From: Acidimicrobiia bacterium
GTDB taxonomy: Bacteria > Acidobacteriota > Vicinamibacteria > Vicinamibacterales > CAVVIG01
DNA: 64,000 nt
Direction: 5' to 3'
Assembly: GCA_016871175.1 (NCBI GenBank)
Contig: VFZL01000003.1
Span: 62,001-126,000, forward strand
In this document: positions 4,369 through 47,469 of the stretch, piece by piece
How the letters are laid out: each line of letters opens with the position of its first letter
Numbering within the stretch: position 1 is the stretch's first letter
The notes under the pieces: model-generated
What the model saw: only the letters and a program-made list of their open reading frames with translations
What the model was told of the DNA's origin: nothing
The model's database searches: none
Made by a program: the position numbers and the translations under genes

Positions 4369-6363
4369 CTATTTGCCTGGCAGGGCAAACGCCATCAACT
4401 CGCCAGGCATCACCGCACCACTCACGCCGAGCACGATGTACTGCTTGCCGTTCCACATGTAGCTCATCGGCGAGCCGGTCTGTGCCCCAGGCATGTAGAC
4501 CGCACCGACTTCCTTACCGGTCGCCTTGTCGTACGCGCGGAGCATGGCGCCACGCTGACCGTTCGGTGTGGTGAATGCACCACCCTCGCCCGAGATCACC
4601 AGCGTCTTCGTGGTAAGAATGCCGATTCCGCCCGAGCTTCCGCCCGCCCCTCCCGGCCGTCCGGTGCGTGGGATGTTCATCCCCTTCAGCGCCGGATGAT
4701 TCTTGATGTTGTCCGGTGTCTCGCCGTGCGCGATCTGCCAAACGACCTCGCCCTTGTTCAGGTCGATCGCGCTAATCCGGCCGTACGGCGGCTTGATGAG
4801 CGGCAGCCCTTGCACGCTCAACCCCGGCCCTCCATCGTCCCCGCCGCCCACGCTGATGTAGTTCATGTCCGATCGCTTCGGATCGTTCACCATCGAAAGC
4901 ACGCGCAACAGGGAGTGCGAGTACACATAGAGGATCCCCGTGTCGGGATCGAGCGAGCCGCCGGGCCAGTTGGCGCCGTTCGGAATGAACAACGTGCCAA
5001 CCTTCCCGCCCTCGCCGCGCGCGATCGGCGGTGTGTAGATTGGGCCAAACTTGTACTGCTGCAGGAGCTTCAGCCCTTCCGCCTTCAATTGGGGCGTGAA
5101 GTCGATGACGTAGTCTTCGAGGAACCCGTTGCGCTCGAACGGGGGTGGCTTGGTCGGAAACGGCTGCGTCGGCGAGTAGGTCTCGGACGGGAGCGTCCCC
5201 TTCTCCACGGGACGCTCTTCGATCGGCCACACCGGCTTGCCCGTCACCCGATCGAAAAGGAACAGGAAGCCTTGCTTGGTTGGCTGCGCAATCGCTTTGA
5301 TCCGCTGGCCGTTCACCGTGATGTCCGCCAGAATGGGTGCGCAGGGCACGTCGTAGTCCCAGATCGGGTGGTGGACGAACTGGAAATGCCACAGCCGCTT
5401 CCCAGTCTGCAATTCGACTGCGACGAGACTCTCCGCAAACAAGTTGTTGCCGGGTCGGTGTCCTCCGAAGTAGTCGCCGGTCGGAATCTCAACCGGCAAA
5501 TACGCGATGCCCAACTCCTCGTCGACCGTGAGCTGCGTCCACATGCCGGTGTGTCCGGTGTACGACCATGAGTCGTTCAACCATGTGTCGTTGCCAAACT
5601 CGCCGGGACGGGGAATAGTGTGGAAGATCCAGAGTCGCTTGCCCGTTTTCGCGTCGTATCCTCGGACGTAGCCCTTCGGGTTCTCCCTGCTCCGCGGTGC
5701 CGTGCCGCCACGATGCGACGCACCCACGATGACGACGTTTTTCGCGACGATGGGCGCGCCGTTCCAGGAGATGTCGGCTGTCTCGAGGTCGAGGGTCTGG
5801 TCCGCGTCCAGCCGCAGATCGACGACGCCGTGGCTCCCGAAGTCCGCGAGCGGCCGTCCGGTCTTCGCATCCAGCCCGACGAGTTGATACCCGTTCGACA
5901 CGTAGAAGATGCGCTCGTCGCCCTTCCCGTCGGTCCAGTAGCCGACGCCGCGGCCCGACATACGCCGCGACGACACCTGGGCACGGCGACCTTCCTCGAG
6001 TCGATGCATCCACAGCATCTCGCCGGTATCGGCCCTCACGGCGACAGCGTTCCGATGCGATCCGGCCGTGAAGTACAACACGCCGTTCACCATCAGCGGC
6101 GTCGTCTGGAGGTTGAAATCGGGACGGGGGCCCAGGTTGTCCGTCTTGAATCGCCAGGCCACTTCCAGCGTGTTGAAGTTCTGGGCGTTGATCTGGTCGA
6201 GCGGCGCGTACCGCGTGGACCCCACGTCACCCGCCCAGGATCGCCACTCGCCCTTAGTGGCGCCCTTCTGCGCCACGGCGGTCGTCGTCACAGCCGCGAC
6301 GCACAGTGCCACTGTTCCGAGCCAGACGCGTACGGACGCCCCGCAGAAGCTGCATGACCGCAT
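4369..6363 (-). CDS. PQQ-dependent dehydrogenase (quinoprotein, glucose-dehydrogenase-like)
   Basis: Repeated PQQ propeller motifs (AVAVRADTGEMLWMHRL, LVGLDAKTGRPLADFGSHGVVDL, VRGYDAKTGKRLWIFH) with a signal sequence. Confidence 0.9.
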   Translation of the reverse strand: MRSCSFCGASVRVWLGTVALCVAAVTTTAVAQKGATKGEWRSWAGDVGSTRYAPLDQINAQNFNTLEVAWRFKTDNLGPRPDFNLQTTPLMVNGVLYFTAGSHRNAVAVRADTGEMLWMHRLEEGRRAQVSSRRMSGRGVGYWTDGKGDERIFYVSNGYQLVGLDAKTGRPLADFGSHGVVDLRLDADQTLDLETADISWNGAPIVAKNVVIVGASHRGGTAPRSRENPKGYVRGYDAKTGKRLWIFHTIPRPGEFGNDTWLNDSWSYTGHTGMWTQLTVDEELGIAYLPVEIPTGDYFGGHRPGNNLFAESLVAVELQTGKRLWHFQFVHHPIWDYDVPCAPILADITVNGQRIKAIAQPTKQGFLFLFDRVTGKPVWPIEERPVEKGTLPSETYSPTQPFPTKPPPFERNGFLEDYVIDFTPQLKAEGLKLLQQYKFGPIYTPPIARGEGGKVGTLFIPNGANWPGGSLDPDTGILYVYSHSLLRVLSMVNDPKRSDMNYISVGGGDDGGPGLSVQGLPLIKPPYGRISAIDLNKGEVVWQIAHGETPDNIKNHPALKGMNIPRTGRPGGAGGSSGGIGILTTKTLVISGEGGAFTTPNGQRGAMLRAYDKATGKEVGAVYMPGAQTGSPMSYMWNGKQYIVLGVSGAVMPGELMAFALPGK

Positions 6364-6401
6364 AGTGAGACCTCACGCTCCGGAAACGGCTGGATGCTAC
6401 C

Positions 6402-6439
6402 CCAAAAACAAAAGGAGAGGCCCTTTCGGAACCTCTCCT
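6402..6439 (-). terminator. Rho-independent terminator downstream of the 6486..7952 gene
   Basis: Perfect 8-bp stem aggagagg...cctctcct (6413-6420/6432-6439). On the minus strand it is followed by TTTTGTTTTT. Confidence 0.8.
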
Positions 6440-6485
6440 TCCCTACCTGCCTACCCGCCCAGCTCCTTGCCCGCGTGACCGAGGC

Positions 6486-7952
6486 CTACTGCTGCTGTTG
6501 CTGCTGCGTCCGAGTACCGGCGGGCGCCTTGCCGCGCTTGGCGAGCTCTTTCTGGTACTGCTCTGGAGTCAGGAACGCGATATCGGTCCACCCGTGCCCC
6601 ATCTCGTCCATCGTTCGGCTGCCCCATCCGCGCCAGTTGGTCGGGTCGGGGTTGTGCTTATTGTTCGCTGTGTTGTCATGGTACGAGATGGTGTGGAGGA
6701 TCGTCCCCTTCGGGAAGAGGTGCGGCGTCTTGTACGTGTAAGTGATCTGCCAATTCTGCTCGTAGCGGTTCGCATCCGTGAGCGTCTCACGTCGGCCGTC
6801 CGGGTGAATGGCTTCGAGGATCATCCGCGTGCCCAGGAAGTGCATGTGCGGCTGGAAGCTGAGGATCAGCGCATCTTGCGGCAGCGGCCAGAAGCGCTCG
6901 TGCGTGGCCACGGTATTCGGGGGGATGCTCAGCGTGGTCGCCGAGTGCAGCGGATTCTCTTGAACCAGGAATCCCGTTGGCATCCGCGGTTCGTTGATGT
7001 CGATCTTGTGGCCGGCCTTGAGGATGGCGTCTTCCACCTTCTCGCGGTTGAGCGCCCACATATTCCCGACGTCGGTGCGGATGCGATGTGACGTGACCAC
7101 GTACTCAGGCTTGTAGCCCTTGGGGTAGAACTTGATGCCGACGCGTTCGATGTCGTGCTTCTCCTCGCCCATCGAGTGATAGTGCGGGGCGAATCGGAAC
7201 TTGGATCCCGCCTTGATCAGCTTCGCTGTTCCGTCCGCGAAGAAGTCGGCGTCGTTCCCCGGCCCGTACTCGATGAGGTCCATCTCCTCGTCGGTATTCG
7301 AGCCCATGCCCAGCGAGAGCCCATCTCGATCGGCGCCCTCCGGCGCACGCACATACACGTGAGAATGGTGCACACAGCAGTTCGCCGACGGAATCATCTG
7401 CACCCACTTGACGTAGCGGTCTTCGGTGATCTTCGGATCCACGATCTCGCTCGGCTGCGTGTCCCGACCGGCGGCGGGGATCGTGAAGCCTTTCTCCATG
7501 CTCACGACCAGGTCGGGCTCGCCGAACGCCCATTCGTCTGCAGCTCTGAACTTGGCCGGGGGCGGTGCGTCCTTGGGATCACCCTGAGGCGCACCCCCGT
7601 CGATCCACCTCACGACCGTCTCGATCTCCTTGTCGGAGAGCGACGGATCATCGAGATACTCGCCGATGCTCCGATCGATGTGCCACGGTGGCATTTGACG
7701 GCTCGACACCCGCGCCTTGATGGCCCGGACCCATGGACGCACGTCCTGATACGTCAGCAGTGACATCGGGGCGATCGAGTTTGGACGATGACACTTCTGG
7801 CACGAGCGCTGAAGGAGCGGAAGGACATCCTTCGTGAACGTTGGCGTGGCTGCCTTCGTTGATTGCCCCGCGACGACGGGCGGCATGAGCAACACGAACA
7901 CGGTCGGCACGCCGACGCTCAACGCGAGCCGGGCGAACTTGCGCATAATCAC
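6486..7952 (-). CDS. exported heme-c protein with copper type II ascorbate-dependent monooxygenase-like His motifs; C-terminal poly-Q
   Basis: Signal peptide; CQKCH heme motif in FTKDVLPLLQRSCQKCHRPNSIAPMSLLTYQDVRPW; VHHSHVY, HYHSMG, QPHMHFLG; ends ...RTQQQQQQ. Confidence 0.8.
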   Translation of the reverse strand: MIMRKFARLALSVGVPTVFVLLMPPVVAGQSTKAATPTFTKDVLPLLQRSCQKCHRPNSIAPMSLLTYQDVRPWVRAIKARVSSRQMPPWHIDRSIGEYLDDPSLSDKEIETVVRWIDGGAPQGDPKDAPPPAKFRAADEWAFGEPDLVVSMEKGFTIPAAGRDTQPSEIVDPKITEDRYVKWVQMIPSANCCVHHSHVYVRAPEGADRDGLSLGMGSNTDEEMDLIEYGPGNDADFFADGTAKLIKAGSKFRFAPHYHSMGEEKHDIERVGIKFYPKGYKPEYVVTSHRIRTDVGNMWALNREKVEDAILKAGHKIDINEPRMPTGFLVQENPLHSATTLSIPPNTVATHERFWPLPQDALILSFQPHMHFLGTRMILEAIHPDGRRETLTDANRYEQNWQITYTYKTPHLFPKGTILHTISYHDNTANNKHNPDPTNWRGWGSRTMDEMGHGWTDIAFLTPEQYQKELAKRGKAPAGTRTQQQQQQ

Positions 7953-8306
7953 CTCTCCTGAACCGACCGGTGACCTGGATCGACCGCAACAGTATACGCT
8001 ATGGACTGGCGGTCGTGAACGCCTGAAACCCTCCTTGAGGAAGAAGTTGCCAGGCCTCTTGACAGCGGCTACGCTCGGGTTTCGATCGGTGTCGTCGCGT
8101 GCAACGGCTCAGGTAATGAGCGCCACACGACAGGAAGGAACTCAGTGGAGGGCTAGATGTGCCAAGTTGACGCTCACAAAAGGGTCGGCCGAAGCGGCGT
8201 GCTAAGCGGAGCGTACCCACTCGACGGATCCGCTGCCCCCCCAGTTGCGGATCCAGCACCCGCGCGCCTCGGGACCGAAGCTGACCTCGCAAGGAGACCA
8301 CGTGCG

Positions 8307-9077
8307 GTGAGCGTGCCCCAGACCTTCGTCCGCTGGTTCGCCGCACTGGTGTGGAGCGCGGGGCCGCTCGTCGGGACTGGGCTGGCGCAACAGAATCAGC
8401 CGATCTACCCCTCGTACGAGGGGTTCATGAAGAACGCCGATGGCACGCTCACGCTGTCGTTCGGATACTACAGCCACAACGCCGAGGTCATCACCATTCC
8501 CCCCGGCGCCGACAACTCCTTCGCTCCAACCCCTGAGGATCGCCAACAGCCCACGGTGTTCAAGCCAGGGCATTGGGAGCGTCAATGCGTCATGGTGGTG
8601 CCCGGCAACTTCGATGGCAAGTTGACGTGGAATCTCGCCTACGCCGGGAAAGCGACCAGCACCAGCACGAGGATGCTCCAGTCCAATTGGTTCCTCGTGG
8701 AAGCGGTGGATGAGCTCACCAGGTCGATCGACCTCGCGAAAGCCAAACACGGCGTCTGTCTCAATCGTGCGCCGGAGGTGTCGGTGCTCGGAACGGTCCG
8801 CAAGCGCGGCGCACCGTCGACCTTGGCGACGCCGATGGATGTCGGCGCGACGGAGAGCCTCTTCGGGAGCGTGCACGATGAGGGGCTGCCGCGGGGCAAG
8901 CCAGTGACGGCCAGCTGGAAACAAATCTCAGGTCCCGGCACGGCGAGGTTCGAGCGAGCCGACACGGCTCGCACGCACGTCGTGTTCTCGGCACCCGGTG
9001 AATACGTCCTGGAGTTGACCGGAAGCGACTCCGAGCTGAACGCGTCGACACGAGTCACGGTGACGGTCGTGAAGTAA
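8307..9077 (+). CDS. secreted Ig/PKD-like protein, copy A of the repeated module family
   Basis: aaggag RBS upstream of GTG 8307; SYEGFMKNADGTLTLSFGYYSHN...IPPGADN...QQPTVFKPG...VPGNFDGKLTWNL, shared with 14467..15408 and 44902..45873. Confidence 0.75.
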   Translation: MSVPQTFVRWFAALVWSAGPLVGTGLAQQNQPIYPSYEGFMKNADGTLTLSFGYYSHNAEVITIPPGADNSFAPTPEDRQQPTVFKPGHWERQCVMVVPGNFDGKLTWNLAYAGKATSTSTRMLQSNWFLVEAVDELTRSIDLAKAKHGVCLNRAPEVSVLGTVRKRGAPSTLATPMDVGATESLFGSVHDEGLPRGKPVTASWKQISGPGTARFERADTARTHVVFSAPGEYVLELTGSDSELNASTRVTVTVVK

Positions 9078-9089
9078 CTCGACGGTCCC

Positions 9090-11216
9090 ATGGCCCTTGG
9101 TCCCGCAGGCGGCGCCCCTCGGTGGGCGCCCCCATTCCACACGCTGACCCTCACCCTGGCCTGGGTCGCCCTGACGACGGCACCGCTCTGTGCGCAACCG
9201 CGCTCCACTGTGTTCACACGTGATGTTGCGCCGATTCTTTACAAGCACTGTGTGGTCTGTCATCGGGACGGCGAAGTCGGAGGATTCAGCCTGCTGACGT
9301 ACGAAGACGCGCGTCCGCGCGCGGCGGCCCTCGCGCGTGCCACGCGGGCGCGACGCATGCCTCCGTGGATGCCGGCACCGATCAACGGCGTCACGTTCGT
9401 GGGTCAGCGAGGCCTCACCAACGCGGAGATCGAGACGATCGAGCGGTGGGCTGACTGGGGCGCACCGGAGGGCAGTCGATCCGAGCGACCGGCCCCCCCC
9501 GCGGTGACATCGGGCTGGCGCCTCGGCACACCCGATCTCGTCGTCGCTATGCCGGAGCCTTACGTGTTGGCCCCGGGATCGGCCGACGTCCTCCGCAACG
9601 TCGTCATCCCAGTACCGCTTGGCGAAGGCCGCTACGTGCGTGGGCTGGAGTTCCGCCCGGACAACGGGGCCGTGGTCCACCACGCCAACATCAGGGTCGA
9701 CCGGACACGCTCGGCCCGTGCGGCCGACGCGACGGACATCGAGGTGGGTTTCGATGGACGCATAAGCGCCGGCGCCGAGTTTCCCTCGGGATACTTCCTC
9801 GGGTGGACCCCGGGCCAGCTCTCTCCCCTGCAGGACGACGACACCGCCTGGCAGCTGGATCCAGGCAGCGACCTGGTCGTCCAACTGCATCTGCGGCCGA
9901 CCGAACGGACAGAGCGAGTGCAAGTGCGTATCGGGTTCTTCTTCAGCCGGCACGACACGAAGCCGAGCGCGTCGAAGCGCCCTCGGCGCACCCCGGTGAT
10001 GATCCGCCTGGGTCGGCAGAACCTCGACATTCCGGCCGACACGAGCGACCATCGCGTCGAAGACCACTACCGCCTGCCCGTGGACGTCGAACTGGCCGCG
10101 ATCCAGCCGCACGCGCACCATCGGGCCCGCAGCGTCGTCGTGCTCGCGCGGCTCCCCGACGATGTCGAGCGAACGCTGCTGGACATCCCCGAGTGGAGTT
10201 TCGATTGGCAGGACCAGTATCGCTACACCGCACCCATCGTCTTGCCGGCTGGGACCGAGCTCCGCTCTGTGTACCATTTTGACAACAGCGTCGCGAACCG
10301 GCGGAATCCCGACCACCCGCCGCGGCGGGTGCGCTGGGGCCAGAGCAGCTCAGATGAAATGGGGGATGTCTGGTTCCAGGTCATCACGCGCGACGCCACT
10401 GCTCGGGCGGTCCTCACCGAGGACGTGAAGCGTAAGGTCCTCGCGGAAGACGCCGTCGGATACGAGACGATGCTCGAGCGCGAGCCGGGCAACGCCAGGC
10501 TCCACGAGGCCGCGGCGACGCTGCTGCTCGCGCTCGGGCAACACGATCGTGCGGCCGATCATCTCGAACAGGCGCTGCGACTGAATCCCGGTTCGGCCGA
10601 GGCGCATTACAACCTCGGAACGGCGTTGGCACAACAGGGTCGAGCGGATGAAGCGATCCAGCACCTTCGGGAAGTGGTGTCGACGTCGCCGAATCACGTG
10701 CCGGCGCGTGTGAACCTCGGGGCCCTGCTCCGAGGCAAGGGCGACCTTGCCGGCGCCGCCACGCATCTGCAGCGAGCGCTGGCGCTCGATGGGCAGAATG
10801 CCGCAGCCCGAGCGAACCTTGGGGGCGTCCTGCTGCGTCAAGGACACGTGTCGCGGGCGATGGAGGAATACCGGGTCGCCCTTGCCGCGAATCCTACGCT
10901 CCTCGAGCCGCTCACCGAGCTCGCGTGGTCGCTGGCGACGTCTCCGCATCGGGCACTGCGAAATCCGGTCGAAGCGATCGCGTTTGCCGAGCAGGCGCGT
11001 CAACTGACGAACGCTCGAGACGTCCGCGTGCTGGACGCCCTCGCCGCGTCCTACGCGGCTGCGAATCGATTCGGTGAGGCCACGCGGACGCTCGAGCACG
11101 CACTCCGACTCGTGCCCTCCACCGCACCCGACGCTGCCGACACACGTCGTCTCCTCAGCGAACGCCTCGCGCTCTATCGGGCGCGACAGCCCTACGTCGA
11201 CAAAGCGAGACGATAG
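9090..11216 (+). CDS. heme-c/copper-monooxygenase-like protein fused to C-terminal TPR repeats
   Basis: CVVCH in FTRDVAPILYKHCVVCHRDGEVGGFSLLTYEDARPR; VHHANIRV, QPHAHHRAR; then TPRs (NPGSAEAHYNLGTALAQQGRADEAIQHL...). Confidence 0.85.
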   Translation: MALGPAGGAPRWAPPFHTLTLTLAWVALTTAPLCAQPRSTVFTRDVAPILYKHCVVCHRDGEVGGFSLLTYEDARPRAAALARATRARRMPPWMPAPINGVTFVGQRGLTNAEIETIERWADWGAPEGSRSERPAPPAVTSGWRLGTPDLVVAMPEPYVLAPGSADVLRNVVIPVPLGEGRYVRGLEFRPDNGAVVHHANIRVDRTRSARAADATDIEVGFDGRISAGAEFPSGYFLGWTPGQLSPLQDDDTAWQLDPGSDLVVQLHLRPTERTERVQVRIGFFFSRHDTKPSASKRPRRTPVMIRLGRQNLDIPADTSDHRVEDHYRLPVDVELAAIQPHAHHRARSVVVLARLPDDVERTLLDIPEWSFDWQDQYRYTAPIVLPAGTELRSVYHFDNSVANRRNPDHPPRRVRWGQSSSDEMGDVWFQVITRDATARAVLTEDVKRKVLAEDAVGYETMLEREPGNARLHEAAATLLLALGQHDRAADHLEQALRLNPGSAEAHYNLGTALAQQGRADEAIQHLREVVSTSPNHVPARVNLGALLRGKGDLAGAATHLQRALALDGQNAAARANLGGVLLRQGHVSRAMEEYRVALAANPTLLEPLTELAWSLATSPHRALRNPVEAIAFAEQARQLTNARDVRVLDALAASYAAANRFGEATRTLEHALRLVPSTAPDAADTRRLLSERLALYRARQPYVDKARR

Positions 11217-11382
11217 GCCGTTCTGCGACGCCGAGCGAGAACTGTTCCCGCGTCGCGTACACCGGTGCCGCGCAAGGCGCCCGCGGCCCTTCCACAGACT
11301 TCAGGTCGTCCGGGCCTGTCGAAGGACGGCTGAGCGCCGGTTCGGATCGAGCCCCCGCCGTGTTCAGAAGACCCCGACACGT

Positions 11383-14344
11383 TTAGAAAGAGTAGAGAAA
11401 CCCGAGCTCGACAATCCGTGGCGGCAGCACGTCCGTGGGCCGGCCGAAGTTCGGGCCTGACAGCCGGGTGACGTCCAGCACTGGATTCGCGTTGAGGATA
11501 TTGAAGATGTTCACGCGCATGCCCGCCTTCTGGCCGCGTCCCAAGTCGAAGTTCTTCTCGACGCGCCAGTCGACCTGATGGCTGAACGGCAAACGCCGCG
11601 CGCCGATGGGCTCGACGTTGAGCGTGATGTTGGGAATGGTACGTCCCCCCGTGAACTGCACCTGTCGCGCCCAGGGGTACCCGCTGCGCGCCTCGTAGTT
11701 GACCGACGTCAGCAATCCGTACGGCAGCTGATAGACACCTGATAGCTTCCAGGTGTTCTCCCAATTGCGATCCGCAGTGTTGATCTCGTTGTTCGGATTG
11801 AGCGGTGCGCTCTCGACGTTTCCGTTGAACTCACCCGCCGCCGTCGTCGCGGGCTGAGTCAGATCCGTGTAGATGAACGGGACGTTTCGCTTCGTCGCGG
11901 AATACGACCCCGTGAGCTGCCACCGCTGCGACAAGCGCTTCGAGACCGCGACGTCGATGCTGTTGTACTGCTGATTGGCGTTCGGATCGTTCACTCGGCT
12001 GAATCGCTCGAAAGCCCGGCCGGCGAGACTCTGGGGGAACTCGGAGTACGTGAAAGTCCGTCCCGGGTCGTCGCTCGTGTTGACACGTCCATCCGGTCCA
12101 GGATCCGGTGCCGCGATTGGCACGCTGTAGGCCGAGTACGGCCGCAGCGTGTTCAGAATGCGGTAGGTGTTGCTGTACCGCGAGTACAGGTAGGTGGCCC
12201 GAACACCGAAGTTCTGCATGAGCTCACGCTCGAGCGACAACGAGACCTCGTCGCTCTTCGGCTGCCGTTCATCGGGATTAGGGAAGAAGTTGCTGCCGCC
12301 CGACTGGGAGATGAAGTCCGGGCCATTGAGATTCAGATTCGACTCGCCCGCATCATAGACCCGGTTGCCGTTAAAGTCGCGCCATCTGAAGGTGGTGGTG
12401 GTGCGCACCTGCCAGTCTGCCGCGTCCATTTCCGGCACTTGTTGGCGCTGATGGTCGAATCGCCCCCAGCCCCCCCTTGAGCACCGTCTTCCCGTTGCCG
12501 AAGAGATCCCACGAGGCGTGCAACCGCGGTGCGACGCTGCTCCAGATGTTGAACTGCTGTTTGTCGCGACACCCCGCAGGATACACGGCGTCAGCTGGAA
12601 ACGCCGCCGCGACCTGACAAGACGCCGGCACGAACCCGTTGTCGTGCGCGTAACGCAACCCAAGATTCAACGTCACGCGGCGGCTGACCGACCAACTATC
12701 TGTCAGGTACGTGCCGAGGTAGTGACTGACGACTTTCGCCTCGGCGGGATTGTTCCACATCTCCACGCGACACGGTGTCGCGGCGCCCGCCGAGACCTGA
12801 CACGAGGCGAACCCGTTCGACGGTCGCAACCGATAGGGCCACACCCACGAAGAAAACGCGCCGGACAGTTGCGTATTCGGATCGAGAAGCGGGTACTGTC
12901 GTCCGAACCAGTTGTCCGTGTAGTCGAACCCGAACTTGAACTCGTGACTACCGATCAAGAGCTCGGGCTTGTACAGCGTCGCGTTCGCCTTGTAGTGATA
13001 GCGCGGGTTGTGCGGCCGTTGACCAATCGTCGCCATCGGACCGAGATTCAACAGCGTTTGCAGGTCGAGACTGGGGGGCGTGTCGCGGGGCGCGAAGCTC
13101 CAGTAGTGGCTGTCGTAGGTCCAGTAGCCCACCTGGGCGGAGGTGACGAGCTGATTGCTCCACACCCGTTGCAACTCGACCTTCGCGGTTCGACTCGGCG
13201 TCATCAAGCCGCCGCGATGCTCCCACGGGAAGAACTGGCTCAAGGTGCTGGTGGTGTATTTGTGATTGAACTGATAGAACCCGACAAGCCGATTAGCCTT
13301 CGACATCTGGTACGACAGCTTCGAGGTGACGAAGTACGCGACTTCCTTGGCGATGGCCGGTGTCACGCGGTCAGGCATGAACGTGTTCAACGGCTGGGAA
13401 TCGTCGATCTGCCGGCGCGCGGCCCCGTAGAACCAGAGTCTGTCGCGAATGAGGCGACCACCAAGATCCGAGCTGATACTGTAGCGGTCGGCCAAGTCGG
13501 TGCCGCCGGCGAGCCCGAGGGCGCGCAAGCGATCGTCGATATTGCTGCTCTGAAAGCCAGGCCCCGTTTTGTTGAATGCCGTGTTGCTGTGGAAATCGTT
13601 GCCTCCCGACTTGACGATGCCCACCAGATTCACGCCGCGGCTCGGCACTTCGGCGCTGTTACCTAACGTGCGGACAGCCGCCTCCTCCAGCGTGGTGTAG
13701 TCCCAGTAGTTTGCCTGGCCGCTTGAGGCTTGCAGGCTGCTCGTCTGCACGCCCTCGAGCGTCGAGTATGCTTCTCCCGCCTGCCCGAAGACGCGATAGG
13801 TCGGGACCTCGTTGAGCGAGCTGCCGCCGACATCCCGCAGCGTGCGCACGCCGGGCGCCTGCGCCAGCAGGCTCACGATGCCATTACGACTGGTTGGCAG
13901 GAGCTCGATGGTCTCGCGCGTGAACTGCGTGGTCGCTGCGGTGGAGGAGGTGTCGACGACGGGAGCCGCGCCTGACACCGTAATTGTCTCCTTGAGTGAT
14001 CCGACCTTCAGTGGAACATCGATGCGCGCCGTGAACCCCACGGTCAGACGCACACCCTCTCGACGCACGCTCTGGAAGCCGGACAACGTGTACTCGACGG
14101 TGTAGGTGCCAATCGGGAGTGGCATCAACCGATAATCGCCCCGCTCGTCGGAAATCGACACGACCGACGGCACCTGCAGCGACGGGCTCGTCGCGGTGAC
14201 CGTCACGCCTGGCAGCACGCCGCCGCTCTCGTCGGTCACCTGTCCAACGATGCCGGCCTCCTGCGCAGAGGCGGATGCGGTCAGCGCCAGCGCGACCAGA
14301 ATCGCGCCGGCGACGTGCGTGGAGCCGAGACGACGCCTGTCCAT
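11383..14344 (-). CDS. TonB-dependent receptor with N-terminal carboxypeptidase-regulatory-like domain, interrupted by an apparent frameshift near 12470-12476
   Basis: N-terminal part in ORF 12371..14371 (GIVGQVTDESGGVLPGVTVTATSP..., plug domain); C-terminal part in ORF 11383..12663 (...RRLPFSHQVDWRVEKNFDLGRGQKAGMRVNIFNILN...LGFLYSF). Reading joins if one G is removed from AAGGGGGGG. Confidence 0.85.
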
Positions 14345-14466
14345 ACCACCCTCCTGAGACCCTGCGAACAAGATGAGATAGCAGCCGACGTTCTGTGTCG
14401 GCGGAAACGAACCGTCTCGGATCCGCGGGGCAAGTTTCCCCGTGCCTGGGCCGAGTGGCCGAGGCG

Positions 14467-15408
14467 CTAGCGGGTCACGGTGACCGTGACCTCTTGATTG
14501 CGGCTCATCGCGCCGTCGGTGGCGGTGGCCAGGATCTTGTAGGTGCCGACCTCCGAAAACCGGACCGATGTTTCGGTCTCCCCCTGCGTCCCGGAGACGG
14601 CGATCAGATCCTCTGGCAGGAACACGGCCTTGGCCGGACCGCGATATTGCTTCCAGGTCACCCGAAGGCCGAGCACGCGCCGCGGGGCCGAGGAGTTCAC
14701 TTGCGCCGTAAACTGCGACGGTGCCGTCGTGCCGGACGTCGCAACCGGCTTGGGTGTGGGCACCGATCGCGGCTTTGGTAGGCCGTCGTCGGCCGCCTGC
14801 ACTCTGAGCGCGAGCGGCACGTTCACTTTCGCGGTCGCCGTCGCGGCAACAATCAAGGTTGGCTGTTTGTTCGGATCGTCGTGGCCGGGATCGAAACTGC
14901 CGTTGGTCATGACCACCCGCTCGTTGATCTCCTGCTCAGGGATCAGCTCGCCGTACGCGCGCTCGGTTCGGCCGTTCGTCGTCAGCGTCCAGATGACGGA
15001 TTGCTTGCCGAAGTTGGCCGGCACGCGCACGCGGTAGATGAAGCGGTGGCGACGTGGCAGAAAGTACGTGGGCTGATTCAAGTCGCCCGTCGTGCCCAGC
15101 AGCGGCTCAACCTTGTTGTCCGGGCCGACGGGCACGCTGATCTCTTGCTTCCAATTGCGGTTGAAGTACCCGAATACCATGTCGAAGGTGCCGTCCGGGT
15201 TTTTGATCCACCCCTCGAAGTACGGCACGACCGACTGTCCGGCGTTGAAGCGCACCTGCGTGATTTCGGTGGGAAGGCCCGGTGGCGTGTAGCTGCCCGG
15301 CGACGGGCCCTGCGCAGGCAGGGTCCCCCCCCCGACGAAGATGGTCCCAAATGCGACAACGAGAGACGGGCCCCAGCGAGCCCTGGGGCAGCGCGGCCTG
15401 TCCATCAC
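14467..15408 (-). CDS. secreted Ig/PKD-like protein, copy B of the repeated module family
   Basis: PYFEGWIKNPDGTFDMVFGYFNRNWKQEISVPVGPDNKVEP...NQPTYFLP...VPANFGKQSVIWTL; C-terminal SEVGTYKILATATDG. Confidence 0.75.
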   Translation of the reverse strand: MMDRPRCPRARWGPSLVVAFGTIFVGGGTLPAQGPSPGSYTPPGLPTEITQVRFNAGQSVVPYFEGWIKNPDGTFDMVFGYFNRNWKQEISVPVGPDNKVEPLLGTTGDLNQPTYFLPRRHRFIYRVRVPANFGKQSVIWTLTTNGRTERAYGELIPEQEINERVVMTNGSFDPGHDDPNKQPTLIVAATATAKVNVPLALRVQAADDGLPKPRSVPTPKPVATSGTTAPSQFTAQVNSSAPRRVLGLRVTWKQYRGPAKAVFLPEDLIAVSGTQGETETSVRFSEVGTYKILATATDGAMSRNQEVTVTVTR

Positions 15409-15414
15409 CGACTC

Positions 15415-16752
15415 CTACTGCTGCTGCTGGCTCGTTCGCGCCGCCTTGGCGCGCTCCGCGACGCGCTGCTTGAAGTCGGCTTCCTCGAGATACGTGATGG
15501 TGACCCATGCGAAGCTCATCTCGTCGATCGAACGAGAGCCACCGCCCACCCAGTTCTTCGGGTTGGGATTCCACCGGTTGTTCTGAGTGTTGTCGTGCCA
15601 CGAGGTGATGTGCACGATGGTGCCCGCCGGCAGCAACGGCGCCACATCGTCCGCGTAGGGATACGTGATGTGCCAGCCGAACTGGTAGTTGCTCACACAG
15701 CTGATGGTCTCGACGCGGGCCGGGCCCGGCCGCGCGGAGTCCGCTCGCACATCCGGGTAGATCGCTTCCATGCACATGGCCTTGCCCCGATTGTGCATGT
15801 GCGGCTGGAAGGACGCGACCAGCGCCGGCCGCGGGAGCCGGAAGTAGCCGTCGTGGCGAGCGATCTGACCCGGCGGAATGTCGAGCTCCGGCGCATCGCC
15901 CATGTGCTGAGTGAACGCGACGTACTTGGGCACCTGGCCCCTCGGGAACACCTTCAACCCCAATTTCACCGACACGGGCGTCTCTTCACCGCGCGGGTTG
16001 AGGTGCAGGTTGAAGTTGATCTTCGTGCCGGCCTTGATCAGGCGCCCCGAATTCGGCGGAAAGATGTCGCCGTTCTTCCCGAGCGCGTACTCATTCAAGA
16101 ACAATCCGGTCGGATCCTCGTCAGGGTCCTCAACGAGGTTCGTCGTGAAGTGGTGGACAACCTTGAAGCTGCGTGGGTCGGCCGGCTTGCTCTCGATCGC
16201 CATCACATACATGTCTTCCGTGAAGCCCGGGTCGACCATCACGTCGACGATGTTGTCTGGGCCATTCGGCGGAAGGATGTACGGCTTCTTCATCTCGACC
16301 ACGAGATCCGGCTTGCCGATGTACCAGGCATCGAGATCGCTGAACTCACGCGGCTTGGGCAGGTCGGCCGGATTGCCCTGCGGCGCGCCGGCATCCACCC
16401 ACGTCACGATGGTGGCGATCTCGGCGTCGGTCAGCGAGGGATCGTCCTTGAACTTCGTGATGCCGACATTCCGATCGATGTGCCACGGCGGCATCTCGCG
16501 CGCGGCCACCTTGGCCTTGATCGACCGCGCCCACGGTCGCGAGTCCTGATAGGTCAACAGTGACATCGGCGCCACCGAACCCGGCCGATGGCAGTTCTGA
16601 CAGGCACGCTGGAGAATCGGCGCGACGTCCTTGGCAAACGTCGGCTGAGCACTGGAAGACGGAGTCTGCGCCGACGCAGGGGATCCGACGGCCACGCAGA
16701 TTACAAAGGCTCCGGCACCGATCGCGACGAGGGGACCCCTAAGCACGCCCAT
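15415..16752 (-). CDS. exported heme-c/copper-monooxygenase-like protein; C-terminal poly-Q
   Basis: CQNCH in FAKDVAPILQRACQNCHRPGSVAPMSLLTYQDSRPW; VHHFTTN, FQPHMHNRG; ends ARTSQQQQ; 6 nt upstream of copy B. Confidence 0.82.
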   Translation of the reverse strand: MGVLRGPLVAIGAGAFVICVAVGSPASAQTPSSSAQPTFAKDVAPILQRACQNCHRPGSVAPMSLLTYQDSRPWARSIKAKVAAREMPPWHIDRNVGITKFKDDPSLTDAEIATIVTWVDAGAPQGNPADLPKPREFSDLDAWYIGKPDLVVEMKKPYILPPNGPDNIVDVMVDPGFTEDMYVMAIESKPADPRSFKVVHHFTTNLVEDPDEDPTGLFLNEYALGKNGDIFPPNSGRLIKAGTKINFNLHLNPRGEETPVSVKLGLKVFPRGQVPKYVAFTQHMGDAPELDIPPGQIARHDGYFRLPRPALVASFQPHMHNRGKAMCMEAIYPDVRADSARPGPARVETISCVSNYQFGWHITYPYADDVAPLLPAGTIVHITSWHDNTQNNRWNPNPKNWVGGGSRSIDEMSFAWVTITYLEEADFKQRVAERAKAARTSQQQQ

Positions 16753-43771: not shown

Positions 43772-44866
43772 CTACCTCATCCCTCCTGGTGCAATCGCCT
43801 GTTTCCCACGCGCGTGCTGCGCGTGCCCGGAGCTGTTCCGGTCGGTTCGTGTCATCTCCATGAGCGCGGGACCACCCTGCGCGAAGATGCTGTGACGCAG
43901 CGCCATCTTGATCCACTCGTCGACATCGACAACTCGATAGTTCCGGTCCACGAACTGTCCAATCGCTTCATCAACGACCGCGCGCGGATTCGACACCTTG
44001 GGGTGCACCAGGATGTCCGCGAGCACGTCGTGCAGCATGTTCAGGTTGTCGAGAATCGCCGCCGAACGTTCGTGAACCGATACCAGGCCTGGCGCGATCG
44101 ACGGAGCGAGGGGGAGCTCACTGGGAAATGCATCGGGAGGCGTGCCAGCGGTGAGCTTGCGCTCGAATCGATCAGTGACGATCTTCAACCCCGCCGCGCG
44201 ACCCGCGCGATCGCCAGCAGTCTCGAGCGGCTCTTGCGCAGCGAGCTGAAACCAGTGCGCGGCCCACACGAAGCCGGACAAGGTGGGATAGCGCAGCTCT
44301 CGCCGAGGGTTGAAGCCCTCTTCGGTGAACGTCGTGTACGGGTGGTCGTACAGGATGCCCATGTCCTTCGGGACGTCGGGAAGCGCCACGTCCGGACGGC
44401 TCGAGTAGCGTTCGACGGCCGCATCGAGCGCCGCTGCCCGTGCCGGCGGCTCGACCATCGCGAAGATCGCGAGGACCTCTCGGTGGAAGACGTGCGTTCG
44501 CCGGATCAGCTCAGCGCCGCGTCTGCCGAGCGCGGCGTACCCACGGTCGGCGTCAGGATCCGATGATGCGAGACCGGATTCGGCGCTGAGACGCTGCCTG
44601 AGCCGCGCGAAGACGTCGGACTCCTCGACCTTGCCCTTGCCTCGCGTCAGCTCGCCGTACAACACGCCATGAGCGCGCTCCAGGCCGACCAACCGCGCGT
44701 GGAGCTCGGGCCACGCCTGCTTGAAGGACGCGGTCAGCCACGCGGCGTCGGTCTCGCCTGCGCTCGGGCCCCCACCTTGTGCCCCGCCCCTCGCCGACCA
44801 CGCGGCGACGCACGCCACGACGATGACGAGGCGAGCCACGACTGCGTGAATCGGGCGGGGCATCAT
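43772..44866 (-). CDS. hypothetical secreted protein, third gene of the 44-47 kb module block
   Basis: Signal peptide MPRPIHAVVARLVIVVACVAAWSARGGAQ. About 365 aa, no family recognised. Confidence 0.6.
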   Translation of the reverse strand: MMPRPIHAVVARLVIVVACVAAWSARGGAQGGGPSAGETDAAWLTASFKQAWPELHARLVGLERAHGVLYGELTRGKGKVEESDVFARLRQRLSAESGLASSDPDADRGYAALGRRGAELIRRTHVFHREVLAIFAMVEPPARAAALDAAVERYSSRPDVALPDVPKDMGILYDHPYTTFTEEGFNPRRELRYPTLSGFVWAAHWFQLAAQEPLETAGDRAGRAAGLKIVTDRFERKLTAGTPPDAFPSELPLAPSIAPGLVSVHERSAAILDNLNMLHDVLADILVHPKVSNPRAVVDEAIGQFVDRNYRVVDVDEWIKMALRHSIFAQGGPALMEMTRTDRNSSGHAQHARGKQAIAPGGMR

Positions 44867-44901
44867 ACAGCAGCCGTCCGGGGGCCGCCTGAGCGGCCTC
44901 G

Positions 44902-45873
44902 CTAGCGGGTCACCGAGATCTTCCAATACCCGTTGGTCCAACAGCACTGGTCCGCGGCCGTACTATCGACGTTGCCAAACGTGTCGGCGCGAACGCGAAT
45001 CACATAGTCCCCCGGCTCACTGAACGTCGCCGTCGTGGTGGCCTTCCCTTGGACTTCGGCCAGCTGGATTTTCGGTGCGCTGAAGACCACAGGTGCCGCC
45101 GGTCCCGCGTGCCGGTAGAAGGTGGCGTTCAAGGCCGGCACCGCTTCGCGCTTGACTGGAATGGGTTCCTTCTCGTGCACCGCGTCATCGGTAGCCCAAA
45201 CGGTCAAATCGAGAGGGACACCGACCTTGGCCTGCAGCGCCGGCCCTTGTATCCCAGTCGGGCCACGTCCGGAGGGTCCCTTCTCCTGGAACCGCAAGAG
45301 CGGTGGAGTCGATCCCATGGCCATCGGCCAACTCAATTGATACGCCGTCGACGTTGCGCGGGCGGGGATGCTCCACGTCTGGCCCTGATGCCGCAGCGTC
45401 CACACCACGTCGCCCTTGAACGAGCCCGGCACCGTGACGGTGAACACACCGCGCTGGCGATCGTATTGGTTGCCGCCGCCGCCACCGCCGCCACGACCAC
45501 CACGACCCCGTCCGCCGCCGCCGGCCGCCGCGCCCTGCGCATCTGCCCCAGCCGCGCCCGCGTTGGCGCCACCACCCCGGTTGGAGTAGTTCTCGCCGGG
45601 CAAGAACACCGTTGGCTGACGGCCGTCGTATTCCTTCGGCGTGATGAAGTTATTCGGCCCAAGCGGAATGTCCACGGCTACCTTGTTCAGATTCGAGTAG
45701 CCGAACGAGAAGCTGAACGTGCCGTCAGGGTTGGCGTACCACCCATCGAAGAACGGAGCAATGCGCGCCGCTTCAGGAACCGGCCCGAGTGGCCTCGGTG
45801 ACTGCGCCTGGAGCGCGACCGCTCCCGCCACCGCCGCGAGCACGAACCCCCCAACGATCCATCGTGCAAACAC
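44902..45873 (-). CDS. secreted Ig/PKD-like protein, copy C of the repeated module family, with Gly-rich insertion
   Basis: PFFDGWYANPDGTFSFSFGYSNLNKVAVDIPLGPNNFITP...RQPTVFLPGENYSNRGGG...VPGSFKGDVVWTLRHQGQT; TFSEPGDYVIRVRAD. Confidence 0.78.
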   Translation of the reverse strand: MFARWIVGGFVLAAVAGAVALQAQSPRPLGPVPEAARIAPFFDGWYANPDGTFSFSFGYSNLNKVAVDIPLGPNNFITPKEYDGRQPTVFLPGENYSNRGGGANAGAAGADAQGAAAGGGGRGRGGRGGGGGGGNQYDRQRGVFTVTVPGSFKGDVVWTLRHQGQTWSIPARATSTAYQLSWPMAMGSTPPLLRFQEKGPSGRGPTGIQGPALQAKVGVPLDLTVWATDDAVHEKEPIPVKREAVPALNATFYRHAGPAAPVVFSAPKIQLAEVQGKATTTATFSEPGDYVIRVRADTFGNVDSTAADQCCWTNGYWKISVTR

Positions 45874-45987: not shown

Positions 45988-47352
45988 CTACTGCTGCTGT
46001 TGCTGCGTCGTCGTGCTCCGCGCCTTCGCCTTGGCCTCACGATCCGCCACGATCTGCGCATAGCCCTCGTCATCGAGGTGCGTCACGGCGATCCACGCGT
46101 GAGACATCTCGTCTGCCGTCCGGCTGCCGCCGCCCACCCACTGATCGGGATCGGGGTTGCCCTTGTTCTTCACGGTGTTGTCGTAATAGCCCGTCACGAC
46201 GAGCACGGCGCCTTTGGGGATGAGCGGCGCGTAGTCGTCTTCGTACACGTGACTCGTATGCCACTGGTTCGTCCAGTTGGACACGGAGCTGATCATCTCG
46301 AGCTTGCCCGTCTCCGGGTAGAAGATCTCCGCCGTCATGCCGACCATGCGCGAGTGCCCGTGTGGCTGGAAGCTATCGATCCGAACTGGCGTCTTGAAGG
46401 AGTGGAAGCCTTGCGTCATGGCCGTGCCATGCGGAGCAATCTCGAGCTCGCCGCCCTTCATCAGGAGCGAGTACAGCTTGAGGTCCTGCTTGTACTTCGC
46501 CTTCTGCTTGTGATCGGGAGGATAAAGCCAGACGCCCATCTCGACCTGGTCGTCCTTCACCTCTTCGCCGTACGGCCAGTAGTGCACGTCCCACTTGACC
46601 ATCGAGTTGGCAGGCAACGTGCGGCAACCGCTCGCTGGGACGACCTCGCCAGCCTTGCCCGATGCGTACTCCGACAGGCGCTCGACCACCGCATACTGAC
46701 CCGTCTTTTCATCCAGCCCCATGAGATCGCTGTTGGCGTGGTGAGCCGCCGGGCGCCCCTTGAGGGATGGCTTGACGGCAATCGCCTTGATGCACCGATC
46801 CTCGGCGAGGCCAGCGGGCACGATGGGGCGCCACCAGCGATCTTGTCCGCGGGCAGGCACCGTGTATGGTTTCGTCTTGATGACGAGATCGGGCTTGCCG
46901 AATTCATCTTCGTACGACCACTTGGTGCCGTCCGGGAACTGCGCGGGAGGCGGCATGTCGGCCGGATTGCCTTGCGGCGCGCCACTGTCCACCCATCGCA
47001 CGATCGTGTCGATCTGCACGTCTTTGAGGCGGAGATCATTCTTCAAGTGCTGGATGCCGATCGTGTCGTACCGGTACGGCGGCATTTCTCGATCCATGAC
47101 CCGCTGCCTGATCGCGCGGACCCACGGACGAACCTCCTGAAACGTCACGAGGGACATCGGACCCACGGATCCAGGGCGATGGCATTCCTGGCAGTTCTTC
47201 TGAAGGATGGGCGCTACGTCCTTCGCAAACGTGACGGCCGGCCCGTTGCTCGCCGACTGCGCGGCGGCCTGCTGACCTAACCCCAAGAAGGCGAGCGCCG
47301 CCACGGCTCCCACTCCGGCACTCTGCATCCGACCGACCCGCGTTCTCGCCAT
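45988..47352 (-). CDS. exported heme-c/copper-monooxygenase-like protein; C-terminal poly-Q
   Basis: CQECH in FAKDVAPILQKNCQECHRPGSVGPMSLVTFQEVRPW; HHANSDL, QPHGHSRMV, DVHYWPYGEE; ends TTTQQQQQ. Confidence 0.82.
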   Translation of the reverse strand: MARTRVGRMQSAGVGAVAALAFLGLGQQAAAQSASNGPAVTFAKDVAPILQKNCQECHRPGSVGPMSLVTFQEVRPWVRAIRQRVMDREMPPYRYDTIGIQHLKNDLRLKDVQIDTIVRWVDSGAPQGNPADMPPPAQFPDGTKWSYEDEFGKPDLVIKTKPYTVPARGQDRWWRPIVPAGLAEDRCIKAIAVKPSLKGRPAAHHANSDLMGLDEKTGQYAVVERLSEYASGKAGEVVPASGCRTLPANSMVKWDVHYWPYGEEVKDDQVEMGVWLYPPDHKQKAKYKQDLKLYSLLMKGGELEIAPHGTAMTQGFHSFKTPVRIDSFQPHGHSRMVGMTAEIFYPETGKLEMISSVSNWTNQWHTSHVYEDDYAPLIPKGAVLVVTGYYDNTVKNKGNPDPDQWVGGGSRTADEMSHAWIAVTHLDDEGYAQIVADREAKAKARSTTTQQQQQ

Positions 47353-47469
47353 AGACCCTCCCACACGTTGCATTCTACACGTAGCCGCCCACCGCCGGCA
47401 GGCGAAACGGCACCGCAGCCCTACCTGCCGAGCCCCGTAGGCCCCGACCCGGCCACCGGGCCAGCCGGC

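Follow-up and report, generated by a model that had tools for sequence, protein, structure and literature searches.

Cytochrome c-fused proteins with a predicted PHM/DBH-type copper monooxygenase fold are paired with an Ig-like protein in Acidobacteriota

The copper fold shared by PHM and DBH (PF01082/PF03712) is known mainly from animal hormone-making enzymes, and in PHM the peptide is held by the residues R240, N316 and Y318. The family described here has the same predicted fold and keeps the order and register of all six copper ligands, but it is bacterial, carries a fused N-terminal cytochrome c domain, is paired with an Ig-like protein, stays below the Pfam cut-off, has the PHM substrate residues replaced and reaches about 30 copies per genome. 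The cytochrome-linked LPMOs, exported copper monooxygenases that a heme or PQQ protein supplies with electrons, are a functional analogy only: the c-type cytochrome CjX183 (Cellvibrio Cbp2D/CjX183) reduces and activates bacterial LPMOs (PMC8981238), and a PQQ dehydrogenase that bears a cytochrome domain (fungal AA8-AA12) drives LPMOs (PMC5960967). LPMOs have a different fold and one histidine-brace copper, whereas here the heme domain is fused to a putative two-copper PHM-type enzyme. For the partner protein, the closest described domains are the PKD/K319L-like Ig domains (PF00801, PF22352), which resemble its C-terminal domain in some members; its most conserved part, the N-terminal Ig-like domain, in contrast matches no Pfam or NCBIfam model and stands alone beside the enzyme gene in one genus. 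In the open-access papers searched we found no description of bacterial PHM-like or Acidobacteriota copper monooxygenases, nor of the fusion, the partner, the amplification or the bacterial setting; the catalytic fold itself is known.

We analysed a window of 64,000 nucleotides (contig VFZL01000003.1) from an Acidobacteriota genome of 4.44 Mb in 85 contigs, and collected the features of interest in Table 1. A first-pass annotation had proposed an exported redox module of CxxCH proteins, small secreted proteins and a PQQ dehydrogenase, and all the ORFs that it named were present, including the third copy of the association (44902-45873 with 45988-47373). The export signals could also be recognised by eye at the N-termini of the translations, which places these proteins putatively outside the cytoplasm.

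Table 1. Positions of the genes in the window and of the predicted ligand codons in the reference copy.
Feature	Position	Strand	Basis
PQQ-type dehydrogenase (quinoprotein)	4369..6363	-	PF01011 E=7e-175
Cytochrome c + PHM-like copy without same-strand partner	6486..7952	-	ORF; four-protein alignment
Partner-family gene with PKD domain	8307..9077	+	PF22352 E=8e-9; family alignment
Cytochrome c + PHM-like domain fused to C-terminal TPR repeats	9090..11216	+	ORF; Pfam; alignment
Outer-membrane beta-barrel gene, CarboxypepD_reg + OMP_b-brl_4	11192..14371	-	PF25183 E=2e-21; overlapping ORFs, two frames
Partner of 15415-16752: two putative Ig-like (PKD-type) domains, N-terminal export signal read by eye	14467..15408	-	ORF; family alignment; AF2
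Cytochrome c + PHM-like putative copper monooxygenase, reference copy, 445 aa	15415..16752	-	ORF; AF2; fold matches; ligand columns
Reference copy, CxxCH codons (heme)	16602-16588		
Reference copy, Met87 codon (heme, probable)	16494-16492		
Reference copy, His200/201 codons (predicted CuH)	16155-16150		
Reference copy, His250 codon (predicted CuH)	16005-16003		
Reference copy, His318/His320 codons (predicted CuM)	15801-15793		
Reference copy, Met412 codon (predicted CuM)	15519-15517		
Putatively exported protein without family match	43772..44947	-	directly downstream of second pair
Partner of 45988-47373	44902..45873	-	ORF; small-protein alignment
Cytochrome c + PHM-like copy of second cluster, poly-Q C-terminus	45988..47373	-	ORF; alignment

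The partner gene follows its enzyme gene at a distance of 6 bp in the reference pair and of 114 bp in the second cluster. The only small gene near the 6486-7952 copy is on the opposite strand: it is 8307-9077, whose ORF is open from 8157, and which stands head-to-head with 6486-7952 at a distance of about 355 bp, while 9090-11216 starts 12 bp downstream of it. In the latter protein the cytochrome c and PHM-like part covers about residues 1-450 and the TPR repeats about residues 459-613. The OMP_b-brl_4 gene sits between the two clusters of this part of the window without being a constant neighbour, and its two reading frames around 12.4-12.6 kb apparently reflect a frameshift or an assembly error. 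The product of 43772-44947, whose true start is probably internal to the ORF, had no Pfam or NCBIfam match and was not found at other loci, being a singleton in the neighbourhood clustering.

Over their whole length, the window's four CxxCH proteins could be aligned (31-46% identity to the first), and the CxxCH, HH, H, HxH and DEM columns were invariant in all four, which bears out the shared motifs described earlier. An AlphaFold (AF2) model of the 15415-16752 protein, built from 64 homologs, had a mean pLDDT of 87.9 and a pTM of 0.82 and displayed a tandem beta-sandwich fold as in PHM. When this model was searched against the PDB, PHM or DBH made up every one of matches 1-29 (E 7e-11 to 3.4e-8, prob 1.00), and those after rank 29 were unrelated proteins with TM-scores near 0.2. 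For PHM the TM-score by target was about 0.6; the query-normalised score was 0.42-0.45 for most PHM matches, a low value because PHM has no heme domain. PHM was not found by PDB sequence search, either with a single protein or with a 4-row profile, so that recognising the likeness needed a profile-to-sequence comparison together with the fold search. With hhalign, the family profile matched rat PHM (a query sequence identical to PDB 1opm over residues 2-290) with an E of about 1e-5 and a score of 46.5, against scores of at most 25.0 in 120 shuffles of rat PHM and 16.2 for the reversed sequence; the global mode gave no useful alignment to rat PHM.

According to the model, the CxxCH proteins of the window are thus predicted to carry a PHM/DBH-type copper monooxygenase fold behind an N-terminal cytochrome c domain. 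It is by predicted fold and ligands that they are placed in the PHM/DBH superfamily, and not in the Pfam family as it is drawn now. The best Cu2_monoox_C (PF03712) match among the 64 members had an E of 5.5e-5 and 6 of the 64 matched at E<=0.01, while no member reached the cut-off of 23 bits among the scores shown. In the HMMER comparison suggested in the first pass, the CxxCH proteins of the window gave a Cu2_monoox_C match on 6486-7952 only (E=6e-4) and matches to cytochrome models, all of them sub-threshold. A PF03712 search among relatives returned no match, its controls being likewise silent, and NCBIfam gave nothing useful on the CxxCH proteins of the window. With every Pfam copper-monooxygenase model below its cut-off, the enzyme family is left unannotated.

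The copper ligands of rat PHM (H107/H108/H172/H242/H244/M314) aligned by hhalign with H200/H201/H250/H318/H320/M412 of the reference copy; M412 is in a low-confidence stretch of this alignment, but falls within the shared DEM motif. Both the CuH ligands (H200, H201 and H250) and the CuM ligands (H318, H320 and M412) were in PHM register and present in 64 out of 64 homologs, and the copper ligands were kept in 27 of the 28 paralogs of this genome. The resemblance of the His motifs to those of PHM and DBH, noticed at first from the letters of the sequence, is now upheld by the fold search, the profile alignment and this invariance. In the N-terminal domain, C51, C54 and H55 (CxxCH) and M87 were conserved in all 64 homologs and M63 in 63, i.e. 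the combination of CxxCH and a conserved Met typical of a c-type cytochrome, with M87 probably the axial heme Met. Cytochrom_C exceeded the Pfam cut-off in two paralogs (L061 and L062); at E<=0.01 it was matched by 12 of the 64 members and Cytochrome_CBB3 by 54.

The three small proteins of the window belong to one family (33-39% identical). The AF2 model of 14467-15408 (pLDDT 84.7) was all beta, with its strands in two blocks, and the fold search returned generic Ig-like matches only, with no specific functional match. We read the partner as two Ig-like domains on the basis of this model, the C-terminal one being PKD-like in some members. Eight genomes of one Acidobacteriota genus matched the N-terminal domain only, and in both genomes examined from that genus (2/2) a short gene for this domain alone lies directly upstream of the enzyme gene; what counts for the enzyme is therefore probably this N-terminal domain.

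We found that the enzyme and partner genes are strongly linked. This genome contains about 30 cytochrome-PHM genes and 18 partner genes, and all 18 partner genes are beside a cytochrome-PHM gene. Among 80 named Acidobacteriota loci (with titles that name Acidobacteria or one of its subgroups, apart from a single Bifidobacterium breve label), the partner was beside the cytochrome-PHM gene in 76, and at least one of the four loci without it was cut by a contig end. In whole-genome searches, 65 out of 73 partner genes had an enzyme gene no more than 310 bp away (56 of these 65 lying downstream of it on the same strand), and 5 of the remaining 8 were at contig ends. One locus (L136) encodes enzyme and partner in a single ORF of 686 residues without a second signal peptide. 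A FastTree tree, whose long branches make the details unsure, separated a mostly partner-less clade, which includes the TPR-fused forms and 9090-11216, from a clade of 104 with the partner in 97, with which 6486-7952 groups. Other neighbour families were variable (quinoproteins at 21 of the 80 loci, OMP receptors at 16). Chance grouping of the genes was ruled out by the adjacency statistics, so the non-random association claimed for the CxxCH and small secreted proteins holds, extends beyond this genome and is strengthened by the natural fusion. The association is a fixed two-gene pair with variable neighbours, in place of a three-part redox module.

We consider it probable that the pair forms a two-protein oxidation unit, in which an exported, heme-fed copper monooxygenase works with a dedicated Ig-like subunit. 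The monoheme cytochrome c domain, with His55 and probably Met87 as axial ligands, would accept electrons one at a time from donors in the periplasm or at the surface (a quinoprotein at some loci, another cytochrome at others) and would hand them to the copper sites in place of ascorbate, for which the LPMOs driven by c-type cytochromes are a good analogy. CuH would be formed by His200, His201 and His250 and CuM by His318, His320 and Met412; CuM with O2 would then hydroxylate a C-H bond of an extracellular substrate. The Ig-like protein may bind the enzyme as a docking or substrate-binding subunit, holding it on the substrate or selecting the substrate. Occupancy of the copper and heme sites, the direction of electron flow, hydroxylation and the role of the partner are what we infer. 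The copies number about 30, have diverged from one another and differ in their neighbours, which suggests a separate substrate for each. There is perhaps an even chance that the family represents a large class of extracellular bacterial monooxygenases not described before, with an in-chain heme c replacing ascorbate for a two-copper PHM-type enzyme, an Ig-like subunit and tens of copies acting on many substrates in soil Acidobacteriota.

The place of the PQQ dehydrogenase had to be weighed separately. The 4369-6363 product is a PQQ beta-propeller well above the Pfam cut-off (PF01011, 583.5 bits vs 26.7), and this 4.4 Mb genome holds about 50 quinoprotein (PQQ-propeller) genes, a second large expansion. 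The cytochrome domain could take electrons from such dehydrogenases and serve mainly as a respiratory electron outlet, the whole protein being a quinoprotein accessory. In keeping with this, quinoprotein genes are enriched within 1.5 kb of enzyme genes in this genome (9 vs 2.0 expected, P=1.5e-4), and 4369-6363 lies 122 bp downstream of 6486-7952 on the same strand. This is however the only copy of the window that adjoins a PQQ gene, about 40 of the 50 quinoprotein genes are away from any enzyme copy, and a PQQ neighbour occurs in about a quarter of the 80 loci against 95% for the Ig-like partner; we regard the accessory role as very unlikely. The PQQ link is real but loose, and supports an occasional cooperation and not a fixed three-part module. 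Of the module proposed in the first pass, the enzyme/partner pair thus stood and the PQQ gene as a constant third part did not, and feeding by the PQQ enzyme is favoured weakly by the enrichment and opposed by its presence in a minority of loci. It is also conceivable, though unlikely, that the PHM-like domain binds copper without being a monooxygenase, as an electron carrier, copper store or sensor in a heme-copper relay of periplasmic electron transfer. The loss of the PHM substrate residues and surroundings rich in other redox proteins, with multiheme cytochromes at some loci, would fit such a role, but the six ligands of the two sites, the CuM Met among them, are invariant in 64 proteins and would be superfluous for a simple carrier, and the way the copies have multiplied and diverged resembles a diversification of substrates.

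That the system is a bacterial equivalent of peptidylglycine amidating monooxygenase, with PHM-like peptide hydroxylation and a PAL-like NHL propeller finishing the cleavage, appears highly improbable. In this genome, an NHL propeller follows one of the pairs and matches the PAL core of rat PAM (residues 59-277, E=4.6e-21), and NHL genes near enzyme copies are weakly enriched across six genomes (8 vs 2.8 within 2.5 kb, P=0.007). On the other hand, NHL proteins abound (11-32 matches in each genome), just one enzyme copy of the studied genome directly adjoins one, and the peptide-holding residues R240, N316 and Y318 of PHM are not kept in the 64-homolog alignment, where the columns are mostly Q, F/H and W. 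Since these residues are lost, peptide amidation was rejected as the main role. An LPMO identity was rejected as well, as the fold matches are PHM/DBH and it is the cytochrome domain that provides the mature N-terminus.

If the reading as a heme-fed copper monooxygenase with an Ig-like subunit is true, some soil Acidobacteriota hold about 30 copper monooxygenases per genome, an expansion missed by annotation because neither Pfam nor NCBIfam recognises the enzyme family. It would also add a heme-driven form to the PHM/DBH superfamily, offer a one-chain system for testing the electron route to two uncoupled coppers, and point to an oxidation capacity that may contribute to the turnover of soil organic matter.

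The enzyme was present in 13 of the 20 genomes of the phylum Acidobacteriota that were searched, with up to 30 matches each. The contig labelled as a Bifidobacterium breve MAG (L153, CALQBJ020000045.1) bears an Acidobacteriota-type gene pair, and the label is probably wrong. We also found a Bacteroidota relative with 25% identity on a Chondrinema litorale plasmid (L199, NZ_CP111057.1), annotated as a hypothetical protein; its gene lies directly downstream of a redoxin-domain gene and has no annotated partner-like neighbour. On contig 35 of the genome under study (L045:16141-19571), the enzyme, partner and PAL-like NHL beta-propeller genes form an apparent operon that recalls the PHM and PAL halves of animal PAM. 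Another pair of the same genome, on contig 6 (49933-52118; L012 and L027), is interrupted by stop codons in each gene and seems decayed. Finally, short poly-glutamine tails (e.g. TTQQQQQ) end the 6486-7952, 15415-16752 and 45988-47373 proteins and most paralogs (L044-L062); they occurred in 18 of 32 enzyme ORFs vs none of 347 other predicted genes at the same loci, and in some other Acidobacteriota the tails are N/D-rich.
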